Below the pieces are notes generated by a model. It worked only from the letters and a program-made list of their open reading frames with translations, was not told the DNA's origin and ran no database searches. From Lentzea aerocolonigenes (GTDB lineage: Bacteria > Actinomycetota > Actinomycetes > Mycobacteriales > Pseudonocardiaceae): DNA of 64,000 nt. The stretch covers positions 1 through 64,000 of the forward strand of contig NZ_BBOJ01000023.1 in the NCBI RefSeq assembly GCF_000974445.1, in the 5' to 3' direction. A program made the position numbers and the translations under genes. Below are positions 35,566 through 48,265 of the stretch, piece after piece; position 1 is the stretch's first letter, and each line of letters starts with the position of its first letter.

Positions 35566-35777
35566 CCCTCCCCGCTCTGTCCGTACCCCGAAGGGCGCCT
35601 GAGAGGTTCACCCGCGACTGCACGGGCTTTCACCGTCGGCGGGATCCCACTTGCGGCGGGATCCACTTTCCAGAGGCGTCTCGCTCACGCGGTCCTGGAT
35701 GCCTGAGAGGTTCCCGGGGAGGGACTTGCTCCTTCGGCGCCGGGCTTCACGAAATCCCGGTCTCTCCCGCCTGAGTT
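35566..35777 (-). ncRNA. Tandem glycine riboswitch upstream of gcvP
   Basis: Two aptamers are recognisable on the minus strand. The first (about 35777-35660) has GGGAGAGACCG, then GCGCCGAAGGAGCAAG, CCTCTCAGGCATC and CGCCTCTGGAAAG. The second (about 35655-35566) has GCCGACGGTGAAAGCCC, then GGGTGAACCTCTCAGGCGCC and GGACAGAGCGGGGAGGG. These are the conserved glycine-aptamer cores. The riboswitch fills the space between the Clp-N gene and gcvP and should turn on gcvP when glycine is high. Confidence 0.92.
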
Positions 35778-35835
35778 CAGCGACTACCCGCGAAGGATAC
35801 CCGCAGGCAGCCCCACTAGTCCCCAGGGACGCGAC

Positions 35836-41105: not shown

Positions 41106-41771
41106 GTGGACGAGGTGAAATTCGGTGGCGAGCTGATCACCCGGCTGATGGACCACCTGTGCGAACGGCTGCCGGGATGCCGGGGCGCCGGGCTCAGCGT
41201 GTGGCCGGACGGCGCGGTGATCAGGGCGGTCGGCGTGGCCCGCGAGCTGGACCAGGCCCAGGTCGACGGGCAGGAAGGACCGCTCGTCGAAGCCTCCCGC
41301 GACGAACGGCAGGTGACCGGTCAGGTCGGCGGCCTGGACGTGGTGGCCGTGCCGGGGAGCTGGGGCGACGGCGGTCCGGTGGTGCTCACCGTCTACCTCG
41401 ACCATCCTCCGCACGTCGAGGACCTCAAGGCCATCGAGGAGATCGAGCCCCTCGTCGCGACCGCCGCCGCGGTGGTGGAGTTCTGCGCGGGCGAGGTGCT
41501 CAGGGCTGACCAGATGGTGCGGATGGTGCAGCACCGGCGCTACATCGAGCAGGCGAAGGGCCTGGTGATGGGGGCGAGGCCCTGCCCTCCAGGGGATGCC
41601 TTCGAGCTGCTCGTGCGGGCGAGTCAGCACGCCAACGTCAAGCTCCGGGACATCTCGATGGCGCTGGTGCTGGTGGCCAGCGGGGAGTTGGAAGACGCCG
41701 ACGACGTGACGATGCCGCCGCAGATCGCCTTCGACACGGCGCGGCGGCTCTGGGGCGCGGTGAATTTGTGA
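41106..41771 (+). CDS. GAF-like and ANTAR domain protein
   Basis: The 221-residue protein has an N-terminal GAF-like sensor (about 10-130) and a C-terminal ANTAR RNA-binding domain: RRYIEQAKGLVMGARPCPPG and AFELLVRASQHANVKLRDIS. ANTAR proteins act as antiterminators on paired hairpins. In actinobacteria GAF-ANTAR proteins sit near stress sigma loci, as here. GTG start, apparently with little leader. Confidence 0.85.
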   Translation: MDEVKFGGELITRLMDHLCERLPGCRGAGLSVWPDGAVIRAVGVARELDQAQVDGQEGPLVEASRDERQVTGQVGGLDVVAVPGSWGDGGPVVLTVYLDHPPHVEDLKAIEEIEPLVATAAAVVEFCAGEVLRADQMVRMVQHRRYIEQAKGLVMGARPCPPGDAFELLVRASQHANVKLRDISMALVLVASGELEDADDVTMPPQIAFDTARRLWGAVNL

Positions 41772-41779
41772 GACCGCAC

Positions 41780-41805
41780 GTTTGAGCCAACCATTGTTCG
41801 GGTAC
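41780..41805 (+). promoter_or_regulatory. SigB/F-type promoter GTTTGA-N14-GGGTAC
   Basis: GTTTGA (41780-41785) and GGGTAC (41800-41805) are spaced by 14 bp, matching the stress-sigma consensus GNNT-N14/16-GGGTAC/T of Streptomyces SigB and mycobacterial SigF. It points at the STAS antagonist gene 122 bp downstream. Confidence 0.75.
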
Positions 41806-41926
41806 AGCCTGCTCGATCTGTCCTGTCGAGCGGTCTCTCCCGTACGGTGAGGCCGCAGCGGTTGAGCCAGCAGCCGCGTCGGGGCCGCTGCAGTGGCGGC
41901 TCCCTGTCGTGCGAGGGAGAACATCG

Positions 41927-42286
41927 GTGACTGTGCAGGACCCGCGAGCGGAGCAGACGATCGAGCTGTCGGTGCGGCAGCCGGCGCCCGGTGTCACGGT
42001 CCTCGCCGTGTCCGGTGAGGTCGACATGGTGTCCGCGCCCGCGCTGCGCGACGCCCTGGTGAACGGCCTGGGCGACGGTGGCACGTTCGTCGTGGACATG
42101 ACCGGCGTGACCTTCCTCGGTTCCGCCGGGCTGGCCGTGCTGGTGGAGGCGGCGAGGCTGGCCCAGCAGGCGAACGCGACCCTCAAGGTCGTGGCGACCG
42201 CCCGGGCCGTCACGAGGCCGCTGGAGGCCACCGGGCTGGGCGAGGTGTTCAGCGTCCACGGATCCGTGGAGTCGGCCCTGGGCTAG
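41927..42286 (+). CDS. STAS-domain anti-sigma factor antagonist
   Basis: The 119-residue STAS protein has ELSVRQPAPGVTVLAVSGEVD at the N-terminal strand region (cited in part as VTVLAVSGEVD), the VVDMTGVTFLGSAGLAVLVE segment with the phosphorylatable Ser in FLGSAGL, and a C-terminal helix. When unphosphorylated it would bind an RsbW-like anti-sigma factor and free the sigma factor. The GTG start has GAGGGAGA nine bases upstream. Confidence 0.9.
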   Translation: MTVQDPRAEQTIELSVRQPAPGVTVLAVSGEVDMVSAPALRDALVNGLGDGGTFVVDMTGVTFLGSAGLAVLVEAARLAQQANATLKVVATARAVTRPLEATGLGEVFSVHGSVESALG

Positions 42287-42951
42287 CGCATCTTGACGGT
42301 GAGGCGGTTGCCTGCCGACCTGAGCGCGTCGGCGACGGCGAAGAGGGCGTCTTCCACTCCGCCCTTCTCCGCACCGAGCTGACTCAGATCGACGGTCAAC
42401 GGCACCGTGCCGCCCCGCGCGGCCGTGGTGAGCGTGCGGCGCAGCGACGGACCGGCCTCGACCGGCACGTTCCCGCGCACGACCGCTACGACGCCGGAGG
42501 AGGTCTCGTGGACCCGCACGTCGCACTCGGGTGCCGCCCGGCTCGGGGGCACCACCGGCGAACGCGCCCTGCGCAGGCGGACGGTCGTGCCGCGTGCCCC
42601 GCGGTCGATCTCGACGGAGTCCACGCTCTCCCGCATGAGCAGGAGTCCCCGTCCGCGCATCGTGAGCGCGGGAGGCGGCACGCGCCACTGGCCGTGGTCG
42701 GTGACGTCGACGCTGACCGCGCCGTCGGGATCGAGGTGCGCGCTCACCTCGACGGTGCCGCGCGCCGGTCCGGGATAAGCGTGTTCGACGGAGTTGTTCA
42801 CCGCTTCACTGACGGCCAGGACGAGGTCGCTCGCCTCGTCCTCGCCGAATCCGCTGTCCTGCAGCCATTCGCGCAACTGGTGCCGCACCGGCGCCACCTC
42901 GCGTGCGTCTGCGGGGAAGCGGAGGGCCAGGAAGTCTTCTCGCACCAGCAC
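42283..42951 (-). CDS. RsbW-like histidine-kinase-type ATPase fused to a STAS-like domain
   Basis: The 222-residue protein has an N-terminal HATPase_c domain: N box LAVSEAVNNSVEHAY, G1 VDVTDHGQWR, G2 MRGRGLLLMRESVDSV. A C-terminal STAS-like half (about 135-222) follows, with VDLSQLGAEKGGVEDAL in the place where a phosphorylatable Ser normally sits. It may be an anti-sigma kinase with its own degenerate antagonist domain. Start at GTG 42951 with GGGGAGGAG. It converges on the STAS gene with a 4-bp overlap and is divergent from the second anti-sigma gene. Confidence 0.85.
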   Translation of the reverse strand: MLVREDFLALRFPADAREVAPVRHQLREWLQDSGFGEDEASDLVLAVSEAVNNSVEHAYPGPARGTVEVSAHLDPDGAVSVDVTDHGQWRVPPPALTMRGRGLLLMRESVDSVEIDRGARGTTVRLRRARSPVVPPSRAAPECDVRVHETSSGVVAVVRGNVPVEAGPSLRRTLTTAARGGTVPLTVDLSQLGAEKGGVEDALFAVADALRSAGNRLTVKMR

Positions 42952-43012
42952 AGCGCTCCTCCCCTTTGGTTGCCTCTGACAGGTGACTTCCCGGGCCCAC
43001 GAGCCAATACAC

Positions 43013-43038
43013 GTGTGAAATGAGATCGATTCGGGTAC
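43013..43038 (+). promoter_or_regulatory. SigB/F-type promoter GTGTGA-N14-GGGTAC
   Basis: GTGTGA (43013-43018) and GGGTAC (43033-43038) repeat the spacing of the promoter at 41780. The expected start of transcription is at or just before the GTG at 43048, so the anti-sigma/sigma transcript may be leaderless. This gives autoregulation of the sigma operon. Confidence 0.75.
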
Positions 43039-43047
43039 GGCAATGAC

Positions 43048-43482
43048 GTGCCGGCCTTCAGCAGAACGGACTACGAGGTGGGTGTGACGCAATTGTCAGG
43101 GGTCGAACTGCGGATGGCCGCGGATCCCACGCAGCTGTCCATCGTGCGCGCGGTCGCCGCGGACATCGCGATGCGGCAGGACTTCGACCTCGACTCGATC
43201 GAGGACCTGAAGCTCGCCGTGGACGAGACGTGCTCGACGTTGATCACGCTGGCGGCCGAGGACGCCATGCTCAGCTGTCACTTCGCGGTCGACGGCGCAG
43301 GAGCGGTCCACGTCCGCGCCAGAGTGCTCGCGAAGTCCGCGGCTGGTCCCGACGAGGGCAGCTTCGGCTGGCGCGTGCTGACCGCGCTCGTCGACTCCGT
43401 GCAGACCAGAGTCGAGGACGCCGAAGGGTTCGTGGTCCACATCGACCTCGTGAAGTCTTCGGCAGGGGCGGTGGATGCGTGA
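43048..43482 (+). CDS. Anti-sigma factor, RsbW/UsfX-like ATPase
   Basis: The 144-residue protein is a HATPase_c-like anti-sigma factor. LSGVELRMAADPTQLSIVRA is at the start, DLKLAVDETCSTLITLAAED is the N-box region, and SFGWRVLTALVDSVQTRVED is the C-terminal helix region typical of SigF inhibitors. The N-box Asn is replaced (DETCSTLI), so kinase activity may be weak or absent. The gene overlaps the sigma gene by 4 bp. Internal GTG starts at 43078 or 43084 are also possible. Confidence 0.85.
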   Translation: MPAFSRTDYEVGVTQLSGVELRMAADPTQLSIVRAVAADIAMRQDFDLDSIEDLKLAVDETCSTLITLAAEDAMLSCHFAVDGAGAVHVRARVLAKSAAGPDEGSFGWRVLTALVDSVQTRVEDAEGFVVHIDLVKSSAGAVDA

Positions 43483-44288
43483 CGGGCTCGGAGGAGGCGA
43501 CCAAAACCTCCCCTGGCGAGGAGAAGAAGTCCTCGCAGGGCGGTGACTACGACCACCTGGCCCCGTTGTTCGCCGAGCTCGCGCAGACCCCTGCCGGTCC
43601 TGCGCGGGACACTCTGCGGGACCGGCTGGTCACCGAGCACCTCCCGGTCGCCCAGCACATCGCACGCCGGTTCGGCCACCGCGGCGAACCCCACGAGGAC
43701 CTGGTGCAGGTCGCGACGGTCGGCCTGATCAACGCGGTCGACCGCTTCGACCCGGACCGCGGCAGCGACTTCCTGTCGTTCGCGGTACCGACGATCATGG
43801 GCGAGGTCCGGAAGTACTTCCGCGACTCCAGCTGGTCGGTCCGCATGCCCAGACGGCTCAAGGAGCTGCACCTGGCGATCAACGCGGGCACCTCGCGCCT
43901 GTCGCAGTCGCTCGGACGCGCGCCCACGCCGTCGGAACTGGCGGAGCACCTCGGGCTGTCGCGCGAGGAGATCCATGAAGGACTCGCGGCCGGAAACGCT
44001 TACCAGAGCGCGTCTTTGGACGACATGCTGATGTCGGAGGACTCGTCGATCTCGCTCGGGTCGACGATCGGCGAGGAAGATCCCGAGATCGCGATGATCG
44101 AGCAGCGGGAGGCGTTGCACCCGCTGCTGCAGAAGCTCCCCGAGCGGGAGCGCAAGATCGTGATCATGCGGTTCTTCGGCAACATGACGCAGACGCAGAT
44201 CGCGCAGAAGGTCGGCATCTCGCAGATGCACGTCTCGCGGTTGCTCGCGAAGACGTTGCGGCAACTGCGAGACGTGCTCGAAGAGTAG
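43479..44288 (+). CDS. RNA polymerase sigma factor, SigB/SigF/SigG family
   Basis: The 269-residue group 3 sigma factor has region 2 (HIARRFGHRGEPHEDLVQVA, then GLINAVDRFDPDRGSDFLSF and PTIMGEVRKYFRDSSWSVRM), region 3 (APTPSELAEHLGLSREEIHE) and region 4 (KIVIMRFFGNMTQTQIAQKV, GISQMHVSRLLAKTLRQL). It should recognise GNNT-N14/16-GGGTAC promoters. Its gene follows that of its anti-sigma factor with overlapping codons and is expected to be autoregulated. Confidence 0.93.
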   Translation: MTGSEEATKTSPGEEKKSSQGGDYDHLAPLFAELAQTPAGPARDTLRDRLVTEHLPVAQHIARRFGHRGEPHEDLVQVATVGLINAVDRFDPDRGSDFLSFAVPTIMGEVRKYFRDSSWSVRMPRRLKELHLAINAGTSRLSQSLGRAPTPSELAEHLGLSREEIHEGLAAGNAYQSASLDDMLMSEDSSISLGSTIGEEDPEIAMIEQREALHPLLQKLPERERKIVIMRFFGNMTQTQIAQKVGISQMHVSRLLAKTLRQLRDVLEE

Positions 44289-44290
44289 TT

Positions 44291-44590
44291 CTACGACGCC
44301 ACGCGGACGCGGCGCCGGGCAGCAGCGATGATCTGGCGCCGCTCGTCCTCCCCCATGCCGCCCCACACGCCGTACGGCTCCTGGGCCTCCAGCGCGTGGG
44401 CGCGGCACTGTTCCAGCACCGGGCAGTGCCCGCAGATCGCCTTCGCCTTCTCCTCCCGCGCGGCCCGCGCGTAGCCCCGTTCGTTGTCCGGGTGGAAGAA
44501 GATTGCGCTGTTGCGGCCTCGGCACAGACCGTGCATCTGCCAGTCCCACACGTCGGTGACCGGCTTGGGCAGACGGGTCGTGCAGGTCAT
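44291..44590 (-). CDS. WhiB3/WhiD-like iron-sulfur regulator
   Basis: The 99-residue WhiB-like protein has four cluster cysteines (GLCRGRNS, then CGHCPVLEQC) and the turn EPYGVWGGMGEDERR. VWDWQMHGLCRGRNSAIFFH matches WhiB3 of mycobacteria (WhiD of Streptomyces) best. The ATG with GGGAG five bases upstream is preferred over one 13 codons earlier, since the latter would lie almost at the predicted transcription start. A stress-sigma promoter precedes it. It converges on the sigma gene, 2 bp apart. Confidence 0.92.
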   Translation of the reverse strand: MTCTTRLPKPVTDVWDWQMHGLCRGRNSAIFFHPDNERGYARAAREEKAKAICGHCPVLEQCRAHALEAQEPYGVWGGMGEDERRQIIAAARRRVRVAS

Positions 44591-44632
44591 CGCGACTCCC
44601 AAGAACGAGGGCGGAAGAGTTGCGATCACTGC

Positions 44633-44659
44633 GTACCCGTGGTCTGACCAGGGATAAAC
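44633..44659 (-). promoter_or_regulatory. SigB/F-type promoter GTTTAT-N15-GGGTAC before whiB
   Basis: On the minus strand GTTTAT (44654-44659) is followed after 15 bp by GGGTAC (44633-44638). It fits the stress-sigma consensus and would give a leader of about 35 nt for the WhiB start at 44590. Confidence 0.75.
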
Positions 44660-44662
44660 CTT

Positions 44663-46405
44663 CTACAACCGTTCAGGTGCCCCAATACCCAAAAGAGACA
44701 GGCCCAGGGTGAGCACTCGTGAGGTCAGGGTGAGCAGGTGCAGGCGCGAGTCCTGCAGCTCCTGCGACTCCGCGGTCGCCACCGGGCAGTTGTTGTAGAA
44801 CGTCGAGAACGCCGTGGCCGTCTCGAACAGGTACGTCGTGAGCTTGTGCGGGGCCAGCTCGTCGATCGCGGCCTGGATCGCCGTGGGCAGCTGGAGCAGC
44901 TTCAGGGCGAGGTCGCGCTCGGCCTGTTCCTGGAGCACCAGGGGCGCGTCCGCCGGGGCCTCGCGGCCGACCTTGCGGCCGATCGAGAGGATGCGGGCGT
45001 TCGCGTACTGGATGTAGACGGACGTGTCGCCGGTGGTGGCGAGCATCTTCTCCCAGGTGAAGACGTAGTCCTTCTCCCGGTCGTTGGAGAGGTCCGCGTA
45101 CTTCACCGCGCCGAGGCCGATGGTGCGGGCGAGCGCGTCCTTCTCCGCACCCTCCACTTCGGACGTTTCGGGCATCACCTTGTAGGAGTTCTCGACGGCC
45201 TCGTCGAGCAGCTCGATGAGCTTGATCGTGCCGCCCGCGCGGGTGCGGATCGTCTTGCCGTCCGAGCCGAGGATCGTGCCGAAACCGGTGTGCACGGCGG
45301 TGTGGGCGTCGTCGAGCCAGCCGGCCTGCTTCGACGTCGCGAAGATCATCTGGAAGTGCTGGGCCTGCGGCGTGCCGACCACGTAGATCAGCTGGTCCAC
45401 CTTGCGGTCGCGCACCCAGTAGCGGACGGTCGCGAAGTCCGTGGTGGCGTAGCCGTAGCCGCCGTCGCTCTTGCGGATGATCAGCGGCAGCCGGTCGCCG
45501 TCGCGGTTGGTGAAGCCAGGCGGGAACACGCAGAGCGCGCCGTCGCTGGTCTCGACGAGGCCCTTCTGCTGCAGTTCGGTGATCGTGTCGGCGAGGTAGG
45601 GGTTGTAGAAGCTCTCGCCGTAGTTGTCGTCCGCGGACAGACCGATCTCGAGCAGCTCGTAGACCTGGTTGAAGTGCCGCTGCGACTCCCCCACCAGCTC
45701 GTGCCACAGCGCCAGGGTGTGCTCGTCGCCGCCCTGCAGCAGCACGACCCGGCGGCGCGCGCGGTCGGCGAAGCCCGGTTCGTTGTCGAACTTCTGGCGG
45801 GCCTGCTGGTAGAACGCGTTCAGGTCGCTGATCTCGTGGTCGGTGCCGTGGCCCTCGTCGGTGAGGTGCTCGATGAGCATGCCGAACGGGGTGCCCCAGT
45901 CACCGAGGTGGTTGTGCGGGATGACCTCGTGGCCCGCGAACGTCAGCAGGCGGCAGAACGCGTCACCGATGATCGTCGAGCGCAGGTGCCCGACGTGCAT
46001 CTCCTTGGCGACGTTCGGGCTGCTGTAGTCGATCGCGATGCGCCGCGGCTCGTCCGTCGTCGGCACGCCGAGGCGGTCGTCGCCGAGCAGGGCGGCGGCC
46101 TGCTGCTCCAGCCACTCGCGGCGCAGCTTGAGGTTGATGAAGCCGGGGCCCGCGATCTCCGGGGTCTCCAGCGCGTCGGCCGCGTCGAGGTGCTCGACGA
46201 TGAGCGCGGCGACCTCGCGCGGGTTGCGGCCGACCTTCTTGGCGAGGCTCATCGCCACGTTGCACTGGTAGTCGGCACCGTCTCGGTTGGACGGTCGGAT
46301 CAGCGCTTCCTCGGCGGTGATGTCCACGTCCAGAGCGGCGCGCAACGCCCGCGCGACCCGCTGGCCCAGTTCGAGCCCGACATCCCCACGCAGCACTGAG
46401 CCCAC
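44663..46405 (-). CDS. argS: Arginyl-tRNA synthetase
   Basis: ArgRS (580 residues) charges tRNA-Arg. The N-terminal Add-1 domain (DYQCNVAMSLAKKVGRNPRE) precedes the Rossmann core, with YSSPNVAKEMHVGHLRST (HIGH motif HVGH at 137-140), GDWGTPFGMLIEHL, and the DGKTIRTRAGGTIKL region in the KMSKS position. The C-terminal anticodon-binding helices follow (YIQYANARILSIGRKVGRE). The product ends LLGIGAPERL, near the usual end. Confidence 0.96.
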   Translation of the reverse strand: MGSVLRGDVGLELGQRVARALRAALDVDITAEEALIRPSNRDGADYQCNVAMSLAKKVGRNPREVAALIVEHLDAADALETPEIAGPGFINLKLRREWLEQQAAALLGDDRLGVPTTDEPRRIAIDYSSPNVAKEMHVGHLRSTIIGDAFCRLLTFAGHEVIPHNHLGDWGTPFGMLIEHLTDEGHGTDHEISDLNAFYQQARQKFDNEPGFADRARRRVVLLQGGDEHTLALWHELVGESQRHFNQVYELLEIGLSADDNYGESFYNPYLADTITELQQKGLVETSDGALCVFPPGFTNRDGDRLPLIIRKSDGGYGYATTDFATVRYWVRDRKVDQLIYVVGTPQAQHFQMIFATSKQAGWLDDAHTAVHTGFGTILGSDGKTIRTRAGGTIKLIELLDEAVENSYKVMPETSEVEGAEKDALARTIGLGAVKYADLSNDREKDYVFTWEKMLATTGDTSVYIQYANARILSIGRKVGREAPADAPLVLQEQAERDLALKLLQLPTAIQAAIDELAPHKLTTYLFETATAFSTFYNNCPVATAESQELQDSRLHLLTLTSRVLTLGLSLLGIGAPERL

Positions 46406-46438
46406 CTTCCTGAAATCCGGCTGAAGAGTTCCAGTATC

Positions 46439-47119
46439 TCACCAGCGTCCGAGCAGCAACGCGCCCCCGCCCACGAGCGCCGCCGCGCTGACCACGCCGA
46501 AGAGCGTCACCCAGCCCAGGGCGGGCACGCCGGTGAGCCACGCGAGCTGGTCCGCGTCGCTGCGCGGGGCCTGCCTGCGCCAGCGCTTGACCTGGAGCTC
46601 CCACACCGGGCGCACGCCACCGAGCAGCAGGAACCACGCGAAGACGTACGCGGCGGTGTCCCTGACCTCAGGCGTCGCGTAGAAGGAGACGAAGAAGAAC
46701 ACGGCTCCGGTGACGATGATCGACAGGACGCCGAAGACGTTGCGGATCATGATCAGCATGGCCGCGAGGAAGCCGATGCTGATCCACAGCATCAGCTGGA
46801 TGTGCTCGTTGGTGATGAGCACGGCGGCGCCGAAGCCGAGCAGGGACGGGGCGATGTAGCCGGCCAGCGCGGTGAGCACCATGCCGGGGCCGCGGGGCTT
46901 GCCGCGCGAGACGGTGAGGCCGCTGGTGTCGGAGTGCAGCTTGATGCCGCTGAGGCGGCGTCCGGTCAGCACCGCGACCAGGGCGTGGCCGCCCTCGTGA
47001 GCGATGGTGATGACGTTGCGGGTGACCCGCCAGATCCCGTGCAGGGCGACGGCCAGGAACGCGGCCAGCGCGGTGCCCCACGTGATCAGCACCTCGTGGG
47101 TCAGCAACTCGGAAGGCAT
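46439..47119 (-). CDS. M50-family (M50B-like) membrane metalloprotease
   Basis: The 226-residue membrane protein has the zinc site VITIAHEGGHALVAVLTGRR (HEGGH fits HExxH), and further helices including FGAAVLITNEHIQLMLWISI and IVTGAVFFFVSFYA. A charged C-terminal loop and a last helix follow. Homologues in actinobacteria are annotated as M50 peptidases. It lies just downstream of the hairpin that ends the DUF4383 gene. Confidence 0.85.
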   Translation of the reverse strand: MPSELLTHEVLITWGTALAAFLAVALHGIWRVTRNVITIAHEGGHALVAVLTGRRLSGIKLHSDTSGLTVSRGKPRGPGMVLTALAGYIAPSLLGFGAAVLITNEHIQLMLWISIGFLAAMLIMIRNVFGVLSIIVTGAVFFFVSFYATPEVRDTAAYVFAWFLLLGGVRPVWELQVKRWRRQAPRSDADQLAWLTGVPALGWVTLFGVVSAAALVGGGALLLGRW

Positions 47120-47135
47120 CGAGACATCGAAACAG

Positions 47136-47174
47136 ACGCGCCGTGAGAGCCGCATGTGGGCTCTCACGGCGCGT
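47136..47174 (-). terminator. 15-bp hairpin terminator
   Basis: ACGCGCCGTGAGAGC (47136-47150) and GCTCTCACGGCGCGT (47160-47174) pair perfectly around a 9-nt loop, between the DUF4383 gene and the M50 gene, both leftward. Confidence 0.75.
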
Positions 47175-47184
47175 CCGGGAACAC

Positions 47185-47802
47185 TCAGTGCTTGATCTTG
47201 TCCTTGCTCACGCGTTCGGTCTTCGGGTCGACGACCGCCTGTTCCTTGGTGATCGGCTGGGTCGTTCCGGTGCTCACCGTCGGATCCATCTGCTCGATCC
47301 GCCGGTCGTCGGAGTCGCGGAACGCCGCCGAGCGCTGTTCGGGCAGGACGGGCTCGTCCTCCTCCTCGATCAGCTTGCGGCGCGCGGGCAGCACCGCGAG
47401 CAGCAGGCCGAAGAGAGCGATACCGAGGTGCAGCCAGTTGTCGTTCGTGTTGACCGCCAGCGGGTTGCCCGCCCACTCGAACGGGTTGCGGGCGAGCACG
47501 CCGGTGATCATCAGACCCCACACGAAGAGCGCGCCGTAGCCCAGGAACAGCAGCCACCCGAACATCCGGGCGAGGCCCGAACCGAGAGCCATGAGCAGGC
47601 CGAGCACGCCGACGGCCACGTGCACCAGGTTGTGCAACGGGTTCACGGAGAACCCGAGCACGAACGAGTGGGTGGACCAGTCGCCCACCCCCGTGCGGGT
47701 GAAGCCCACGACGCCGAACACGATGAACGCGATGCCGGCCAGGGCGGCCAGCACCTGCACCGGTTGCAGACCGGCGACCTTGACAGTGACGCGGTGGGTC
47801 AT
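47185..47802 (-). CDS. DUF4383 membrane protein
   Basis: The 205-residue protein has four membrane helices in the DUF4383 pattern: VQVLAALAGIAFIVFGVVGF, NPLHNLVHVAVGVLGLLMAL, WLLFLGYGALFVWGLMITGV and NDNWLHLGIALFGLLLAVLP. A charged cytoplasmic tail follows. Proteins of this family are often under stress-sigma control, and here a GTTTGG-N14-GGGTAG promoter lies 37 bp upstream. The ATG follows GGAGGG. Confidence 0.88.
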   Translation of the reverse strand: MTHRVTVKVAGLQPVQVLAALAGIAFIVFGVVGFTRTGVGDWSTHSFVLGFSVNPLHNLVHVAVGVLGLLMALGSGLARMFGWLLFLGYGALFVWGLMITGVLARNPFEWAGNPLAVNTNDNWLHLGIALFGLLLAVLPARRKLIEEEDEPVLPEQRSAAFRDSDDRRIEQMDPTVSTGTTQPITKEQAVVDPKTERVSKDKIKH

Positions 47803-47838
47803 GACGCCCTCCAGGCTCCGTTCTTGTCGCCCGGCTGA

Positions 47839-47864
47839 CTACCCCGGCTCGGCCTGGGCCAAAC
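47839..47864 (-). promoter_or_regulatory. SigB/F-type promoter GTTTGG-N14-GGGTAG before the DUF4383 gene
   Basis: On the minus strand GTTTGG (47859-47864) and GGGTAG (47839-47844) are spaced by 14 bp. It lies inside the 3' end of the upstream small gene and is 37 bp from the DUF4383 start. Confidence 0.65.
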
Positions 47865-48141
47865 CGTTCAGCGACACGTCGGGCATGCCGCTGCGCACCA
47901 CCACGACGTTGCGCTTGCCGAGGTGCACGACGCGCGCCCGGGACGGGTTGACCAGGAGGGTCGTCTCGGCGTTCTGCTCGTTGTAGGCGCGGACCTCGAC
48001 GTGCGTGCCGCGTGCGGCGGCGTTGCGCAGGGCCGCGGCGAGCGTGTCCAGGTTCCACGGCTTCACCAGCCGGAACTGGAACTCGTCGACGCCCAGCACC
48101 GCCCACACCTCGGTGGTGGTGGGTGGATCGGTCGGGTTCAT
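47839..48141 (-). CDS. Small hypothetical protein
   Basis: The 100-residue protein contains VWAVLGVDEFQFRLVKPWNL, then HVEVRAYNEQNAETTLLVNP and RARVVHLGKRNVVVVRSGMP, a regular alternation of strands and helices. No family was recognised. The ATG has GAGGAG five bases upstream; the earlier GTG-type start has no site. Its last codons contain the stress-sigma promoter of the next gene. Confidence 0.65.
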   Translation of the reverse strand: MNPTDPPTTTEVWAVLGVDEFQFRLVKPWNLDTLAAALRNAAARGTHVEVRAYNEQNAETTLLVNPSRARVVHLGKRNVVVVRSGMPDVSLNGLAQAEPG

Positions 48142-48265
48142 GCGGACTCCTCGTGGTGGGCTCCGGGGCGCCGTGCCCACCGCTCGGCGCCCCGGAATTC
48201 TGTGGCGGGCTCGTTGCCCTTCAAGGAGAACTCAGGCGCATCCCCGCGCACATCTGTCGCAATAC

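Follow-up and report, generated by a model that had tools for sequence, protein, structure and literature searches.

A putatively autoregulated SigF-type partner-switching module in Lentzea, with conserved promoters and a recurrent leader element

Introduction

Among the closest described systems, the usfX-sigF operon of Mycobacterium tuberculosis is driven by SigF (PMC7693655), and the SigF regulon of Mycobacterium smegmatis uses the same promoter consensus as the locus described here (PMC4694148), as far as the available portions of both accounts go. Of the RNAs that ANTAR proteins bind, the known targets carry two hexaloops with A1 and G4, a single hexaloop having been reported as the minimal motif (PMC8164766), and EutV requires G4 while one hexaloop suffices for binding (PMC8934654), again in the accessible text of these papers. 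Here, we analyze a 64,000-nucleotide stretch of Lentzea aerocolonigenes DNA (contig NZ_BBOJ01000023.1, positions 1 to 64,000; hereafter the window), in which a sequence-only reading had picked out four matched stress-sigma promoters around a SigB/F-type module and had proposed a compact, self-regulated stress regulon linking partner switching with an iron-sulfur sensor. We consider it very probable that the four sites are real SigB/F-class promoters and that the module is an autoregulated partner-switching regulon; its sequence marks it as autoregulated SigF partner-switching of a known kind, set inside a larger regulon. A 20-nt element in the leader of the STAS antagonist gene is the new part of the module and the part worth following.

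Results

The four promoter sites. Direct reading of the sequence confirmed all four sites, with their strands, as follows.

41780-41805, forward strand: SigF-type promoter of the STAS gene, GTTTGA-N14-GGGTAC; kept in 20/20 close Lentzea loci (L043-L062) and in 0/18 deeper relatives (L064-L081)
43013-43038, forward strand: SigF-type promoter of the anti-sigma/sigma operon, GTGTGA-N14-GGGTAC; kept in 39/39
44659-44633, reverse strand: SigF-type promoter of the whiB3-like gene, GTTTAT-N15-GGGTAC; strict match in 30/39
47864-47839, reverse strand: SigF-type promoter of the DUF4383 gene, GTTTGG-N14-GGGTAG; kept in 37/37

Conservation was judged in 39 of the 41 loci returned by a sigma-factor scan (L043-L081, from Lentzea, Saccharothrix, Umezawaea, Actinosynnema and one record labelled Nocardia; the distant L082 and L083 were excluded), and was scored where an exact GGGTA and a GTTT with at most one mismatch stood in the orthologous place upstream of the gene. 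A match at -192 from the STAS gene in L079 is unrelated to the orthologous site, and in the alignment all nine loci that miss the whiB site retain GTTT, eight of them with AGGTAC and L065 with GGGTA lost. Control genes in the same loci had upstream sites in only 2/202 cases in total (ANTAR 0/18, HATPase-STAS 0/38, SIG 0/39, ArgS 2/22, M50 0/38, ORF113 0/9, FHA 0/38). Mean identity was 0.96-1.00 in the nine motif columns and 0.52-0.77 in the spacers, and over 30 nt of flanking sequence it was 0.51-0.65 upstream and 0.69-0.83 downstream, a pattern that matches the expected footprint of a promoter. The sites thus combine a GTTT-like -35, a GGGTA -10, fixed spacing and conservation upstream of orthologues, as SigB/F-type promoters do.

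That chance matches in a GC-rich genome might account for the four sites could be argued from the commonness of single GGGTA words, from the sites having been found by eye, and from the overlap of the DUF4383 site with an upstream open reading frame (47839-48180), whose stop codon is formed by the last bases of the promoter. Against this, exact GTTT-N14/15-GGGTA occurs three times in the window (the GTGT site of the anti-sigma/sigma operon falls outside this count), compared to a mean of 0.02 in dinucleotide shuffles, of which 0/100 reached three. A genome scan of the kind that the sequence-only reading had called for gave 58 matches of GTTT-N13-16-GGGTA in 10.7 Mb versus 16 for the reversed pattern used as a control. 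Together with the start-codon spacing described below and the retention relative to control genes, these counts make chance exceedingly improbable; conservation in relatives refutes it, short of experiment, and because relatives retain them the four sites are almost certainly real.

Genes of the module. The genes served by these sites, and their neighbors, are listed below.

41106..41771, forward strand: gene of an ANTAR-domain protein, immediately before the STAS promoter (Pfam ANTAR 53.1 bits, cut-off 27.3); SigF-type site before it in 0/18 relatives
41927..42286, forward strand: STAS anti-sigma antagonist gene (Pfam STAS 67.3 bits; TIGR00377 75.6, cut-off 53.45)
42283..42951, reverse strand: divergent HATPase_c_2 protein gene (Pfam 102.3 bits); no SigF-type site before it, in the window or in relatives (0/38)
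43048..43482, forward strand: HATPase anti-sigma gene (Pfam HATPase_c_2 35.3 bits, cut-off 27.4)
43482..44288, forward strand: SigB/SigF/SigG-family sigma factor gene (TIGR02980 301.3 bits, cut-off 234.35)
44291..44590, reverse strand: WhiB3-like gene (Pfam Whib 89.9 bits; closest solved relative WhiB3)
47185..47802, reverse strand: DUF4383 protein gene (Pfam 96.1 bits)

These scores bear out the gene identities first read from the open reading frames (STAS antagonist, anti-sigma protein with a SigB/F/G sigma factor, WhiB3-like and DUF4383 proteins), and the WhiB protein falls in the WhiB3 subfamily, with 125.8 bits to the solved WhiB3 versus 55.4 to WhiB1. Since the sigma factor scored 364.6 bits against the SigF subfamily model NF005514, below its cut-off of 372, we file it as SigB/F/G and not as a member of NF005514. 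The partner-switching gene set of STAS antagonist, HATPase anti-sigma protein and sigma factor is present together, with gene order kept in Lentzea and Saccharothrix-group loci, and an ANTAR gene adjoins the STAS gene in L064 as well as in 17 Lentzea-type loci. The divergent HATPase_c_2 protein has a C-terminal extension past its ATPase domain and is conserved in 38/39 loci.

The wider regulon and probable leaderless messages. The 58 genome matches represent 57 distinct sequences. Counted from the A of GGGTA, an ATG or GTG begins at a distance of exactly 10 nt in 15 of these, and at most 7 share any other offset between 0 and 59. From 14 of the 15 starts a reading frame runs for 100 codons or more, although among these the frame in L027 is probably a wrong one. 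The GTG of the window's anti-sigma gene (43048) likewise lies 10 nt after GGGTA, a spacing found in 17/21 Lentzea-type loci with starts extrapolated from tblastn. We read this spacing as the mark of leaderless SigF messages; it suggests that messages with 10-nt spacing are leaderless, that the window's anti-sigma mRNA probably is as well, and that a good part of SigF messages would be so. For M. smegmatis, the available text lists several SigF genes with distances of 8-11 nt to the start codon (PMC4694148). Among 20 proteins selected from those encoded downstream of the 57 sites, Pfam domains include the YflT stress domain, a BCCT transporter, STAS, GAF-ANTAR, two HATPase_c_2, another DUF4383, DUF6328, PAP2, UDG and others. 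The 20-nt element described below occurs once in a further cluster of STAS, ANTAR and HATPase genes at about 458-467 kb on another contig (G000:C53). This cluster also holds three SigF-type matches, one of them at leaderless spacing before a GAF-ANTAR gene.

Proposed autoregulation and its limits. In the mechanism we propose, the anti-sigma protein would hold SigF until stress led to dephosphorylation of a STAS antagonist and so to release of SigF. Freed SigF would then drive transcription of its own anti-sigma/sigma operon and the adjacent STAS antagonist gene, and also of the genes for the WhiB3-type iron-sulfur protein, the DUF4383 membrane protein and stress proteins across the genome. SigF dependence and the feedback loop are inferred. 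The arrangement that the sequence-only reading had stressed stands: the sigma gene is encoded among the matched sites, one of which, retained in every locus, precedes the anti-sigma/sigma operon itself. The proposed link to WhiB3 also gained support, as Saccharothrix, Umezawaea and Actinosynnema still have the site before the WhiB3-type gene. The proposed compactness does not hold, as like sites occur genome-wide before other STAS, HATPase, GAF-ANTAR, YflT, BCCT and DUF4383 genes, and the four sites are therefore part of a general stress regulon. The four promoters are conserved and of SigB/F type, with the STAS site limited to close Lentzea relatives.

Several points weigh against this autoregulated regulon. 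The STAS site is missing in 18/18 deeper relatives and the whiB -10 is altered in 9/39; about half of the 57 genome sites lack an assigned gene, and no Pfam match at E<=0.001 was obtained for 4 of the first ten and 2 of the second ten downstream proteins. In M. smegmatis, whiB1 and whiB4 have consensus sites without a change of expression in a sigF mutant, according to the available text (PMC4694148). In addition, the same genome encodes a second SigB/F/G factor above the cut-off (102114-102749 on the same contig, G000:C33; L108), about 58 kb from the first and 56% identical to the window sigma factor over 241 amino acids. The four sites could then be real SigB-class promoters that are read mainly, or also, by this second factor, so that the loop would not close on the sigma factor in the middle; SigB homologues of Streptomyces coelicolor are indeed described as cross-recognizing promoters in the accessible part of PMC8346170. 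We regard this as unlikely, for 39/39 loci retain the site that precedes the anti-sigma/sigma operon of the window itself, and no site of GTTT, GGTT or GTNT type was found upstream of the second sigma gene in its scanned 16-kb surroundings, where two matches to the SigF-type pattern lie elsewhere. A short DUF4383-like stretch lies right behind the second sigma gene.

Leader of the STAS antagonist gene. A leader separates the SigF-type promoter from the STAS start; its conservation is strong in Lentzea and partial in Saccharothrix and kin, and it has three features.

41843..41848, forward strand: sigA-like -10 box TACGGT, a second putative STAS start, conserved in leader alignments
41858..41877, forward strand: the 20-nt element GCGGTTGAGCCAGCAGCCGC, as RNA a 7-bp stem with hexaloop AGCCAG
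41884..41919, forward strand: two further leader helices, 41884-41889/41895-41900 and 41901-41905/41914-41918

We propose that these give the Lentzea STAS gene a second input, in which a sigA-like -10 box would be followed by the element at the expected start and then by a Shine-Dalgarno hairpin. The element starts 9 nt below TACGGT, and this putative box is retained also where the SigF-type site is absent; it was scored as a -10 only, and a sigma-70 consensus scan found no promoter there. If folded as RNA, the element core (GCGGTTGAGCC-N-CAGCCGC-like) gives a hexaloop on a 7-bp stem, one pair of which is U.G; this hairpin is part of the RNAalifold fold of the Lentzea leaders and also of that of the Saccharothrix-group leaders. 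The third helix of the leader covers most of the GGGAG Shine-Dalgarno sequence. In Lentzea, paired cells make up 98.5% of the second and third helices, and changes on both sides occur in two pairs, compared to 0 in all slid versions; the covariation score of 0.076 is not above that of slid versions (+2, 0.074; +3, 0.079). An Rfam identity was rejected, as no Rfam 15 covariance model matched at the element (E<=5 in the window, E<=1 in 18 further loci), and no prior description of the element was found in the open-access papers searched.

Recurrence of the element. When 249 genomes of the order were searched for exact occurrences of CGGTTGAGCNNNCAGCCG, 68 of them gave a total of 86 matches, compared to 30 for a control pattern (hand count); we adopted this stricter pattern because a 20-mer search allowing two mismatches was noisy (200/297 family genomes, with similar control counts). 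Context was examined for 82 of the 86 matches, the other four being the window copy and L119, L129 and L130. A STAS (39), ANTAR (8) or sigma (1) domain begins 20-420 nt downstream on the same strand in 48 of these loci, which span five families, and no such domain does in the other 34; the loci include many close relatives (family f16 supplies about 20), and the STAS and ANTAR context profiles were trained partly on the same loci. In the loci of one genus, the ANTAR gene that follows the element is itself followed by the anti-sigma/sigma operon.

Within the Lentzea genome, which has 18 STAS and 12 ANTAR domain matches in total, the window copy was the best of 22 covariance-model matches at E<=10, and four of these (the window copy, L233, L235 and L241) precede a STAS or ANTAR gene. 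Given our estimate that about 0.1% of strand-specific Lentzea positions lie so close upstream of such a domain, the association cannot be chance at the rates found in this and the other sets. Over a wider set of 80 model copies, composed of part of the matches listed for Pseudonocardiaceae-level relatives and 11 own-genome matches, 29 precede STAS, ANTAR or sigma genes; at least five of the 80 repeat loci of the exact-pattern set, and a second match in L316, being identical to L376, was excluded. Of the distinct copies associated with STAS, ANTAR or sigma genes, 51/70 have a TANNNT box whose end lies 5-10 nt upstream of the element, versus 6/83 others, from which we place the beginning of the element approximately at the transcription start.

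Further afield, 1/29 loci at class level (L252-L280) precedes a STAS gene, and most of the others look like coding sequence. That one copy (L271), from family f28 outside the order, has an ANTAR gene upstream. In three genomes of a genus that may be Streptomyces, 0/22 model matches lay before STAS, ANTAR or sigma genes, and the element pattern was not found upstream of 19 STAS loci in two of them. In a single genome (G036), three sigma-factor genes (L335, L358 and L363) carry the element with similar GACAAACCTGTCTG-like repeats just above it. Intrinsic termination was rejected as a common feature of ANTAR leaders, a T-run hairpin being present in L119 and in none of the 12 other leaders listed; the L119 hairpin (1655-1670) is terminator-like, with TCTTTT, in the leader of an element-bearing ANTAR gene.

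RNA or DNA, and what reads the element. We lean toward a role of the element as RNA, which would be consistent with its pairing arms, its U.G pair and the consensus folds of the STAS leaders. In ANTAR leaders, helices after the element change on both sides in 5 pairs versus 1.7 in shuffles (2/500 reached 5), and the own-genome copy L235 replaces a C-G pair with G-C. The element hairpin itself is invariant in alignments, and for this reason the alignments give no test of its pairing. The alternative, which we put somewhat short of an even chance, is that a regulator binds the element as a DNA operator spanning the transcription start. Its sequence is conserved more strictly than its pairing: among nine associated model copies whose stems differ at pairs other than the first, judged by eye, four keep pairing (L235, by change on both sides, L346, L375 and L241) and five break it (L376, L338, L365, L378 and L336). 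RNAalifold on the ANTAR leaders also favors another fold without the element hairpin, and the 3' arm has no general alternative pairing (mean z -0.03 in 108 associated copies versus 0.06 in 83 others), which likewise led us to reject a bistable switch, with that arm pairing downstream, as a general rule. Alternative pairing stands out in two cases only, the 5' arm in the leaders of Lentzea (z -2.4 to -4.1) and, in a small number of ANTAR leaders, the 3' arm. Yet pairing of the arms includes a conserved U.G wobble and does not amount to a symmetric DNA palindrome, and both the hairpin in the Lentzea and Saccharothrix-group folds and the two-sided changes in ANTAR leaders fit an operator poorly.

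Our best guess for what reads an RNA element is the ANTAR proteins, because ANTAR genes are among those that carry the element and an ANTAR gene adjoins the STAS gene in Lentzea-type loci. Across 49 distinct associated sequences, loop position A1 is constant and position 4 is A, C or T; since it is never G, and since one hexaloop is conserved, the element does not belong to the canonical dual-hexaloop (A1, G4) ANTAR targets as these are defined. We put forward only tentatively that the element may represent a new class of 5'-terminal regulatory RNA, in which ANTAR proteins would recognize one hexaloop hairpin (CGGUUG-AGCNNN-CAGCCG). Such an RNA would join STAS and ANTAR genes of Mycobacteriales, and some of their sigF genes, in a single regulon at the RNA level and place partner switching under both SigF feedback and an RNA-binding sensor.

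Elsewhere in the window, a long, nearly perfect inverted repeat (47133-47177) lies between the DUF4383 and M50 genes, and its weak match to a microRNA family was dismissed as surely chance. A Glycine riboswitch aptamer (66 bits, gathering 32) lies on the reverse strand at 35680-35779.

Discussion

The promoters described here would provide a conserved and testable wiring diagram for a general stress response in one group of antibiotic-producing actinobacteria, with a WhiB3-type redox protein tied to SigF by adjacency and a retained promoter. The leader element, if our reading of it is true, matters more: it would be a cis-signal absent from Rfam and common to antagonist, ANTAR and sigma genes, and it would make the targets of actinobacterial ANTAR proteins, a long-open question, directly testable.

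Among known regulatory RNAs, the closest published leader is the dauA motif of Streptomyces, compared here by its description only, which is structured, contains the Shine-Dalgarno sequence and lies upstream of a STAS gene (PMC11109978, available text). Like ANTAR-target RNAs, the element places a hexaloop hairpin in leaders, and ANTAR genes are among its carriers; in contrast to their two hexaloops and G4, it has one conserved hexaloop and no G4. The window WhiB belongs by sequence to the same subfamily as WhiB3/WhiD, whose known members, in other genera, bind the principal sigma factor (PMC7363131 and PMC10245118, in the parts available); SigF control of their gene is not mentioned in those parts.

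The SigB-homologue modules of S. coelicolor (rsbB-rsbA-sigB and ushX-sigH) resemble the Lentzea module in partner switching, autoregulation, two kinds of promoter and GTTT-N14-GGGTA-like promoters, but differ in gene order, and a WhiB3 link is not mentioned in the accessible text of PMC8346170. Mycobacterial usfX(rsbW)-sigF, as presented in the available portions of PMC4694148 and PMC7693655, likewise joins anti-sigma and sigma genes in one operon with GTTT-N-GGGTA promoters, has a SigF-dependent operon promoter and an antagonist among the targets, and has several sites 8-11 nt from start codons. Unlike that system, the Lentzea module has WhiB3-type and DUF4383 genes tied in by conserved sites and adjacency, and its antagonist gene stands beside the operon with a SigF-type site of its own and an extra leader element.

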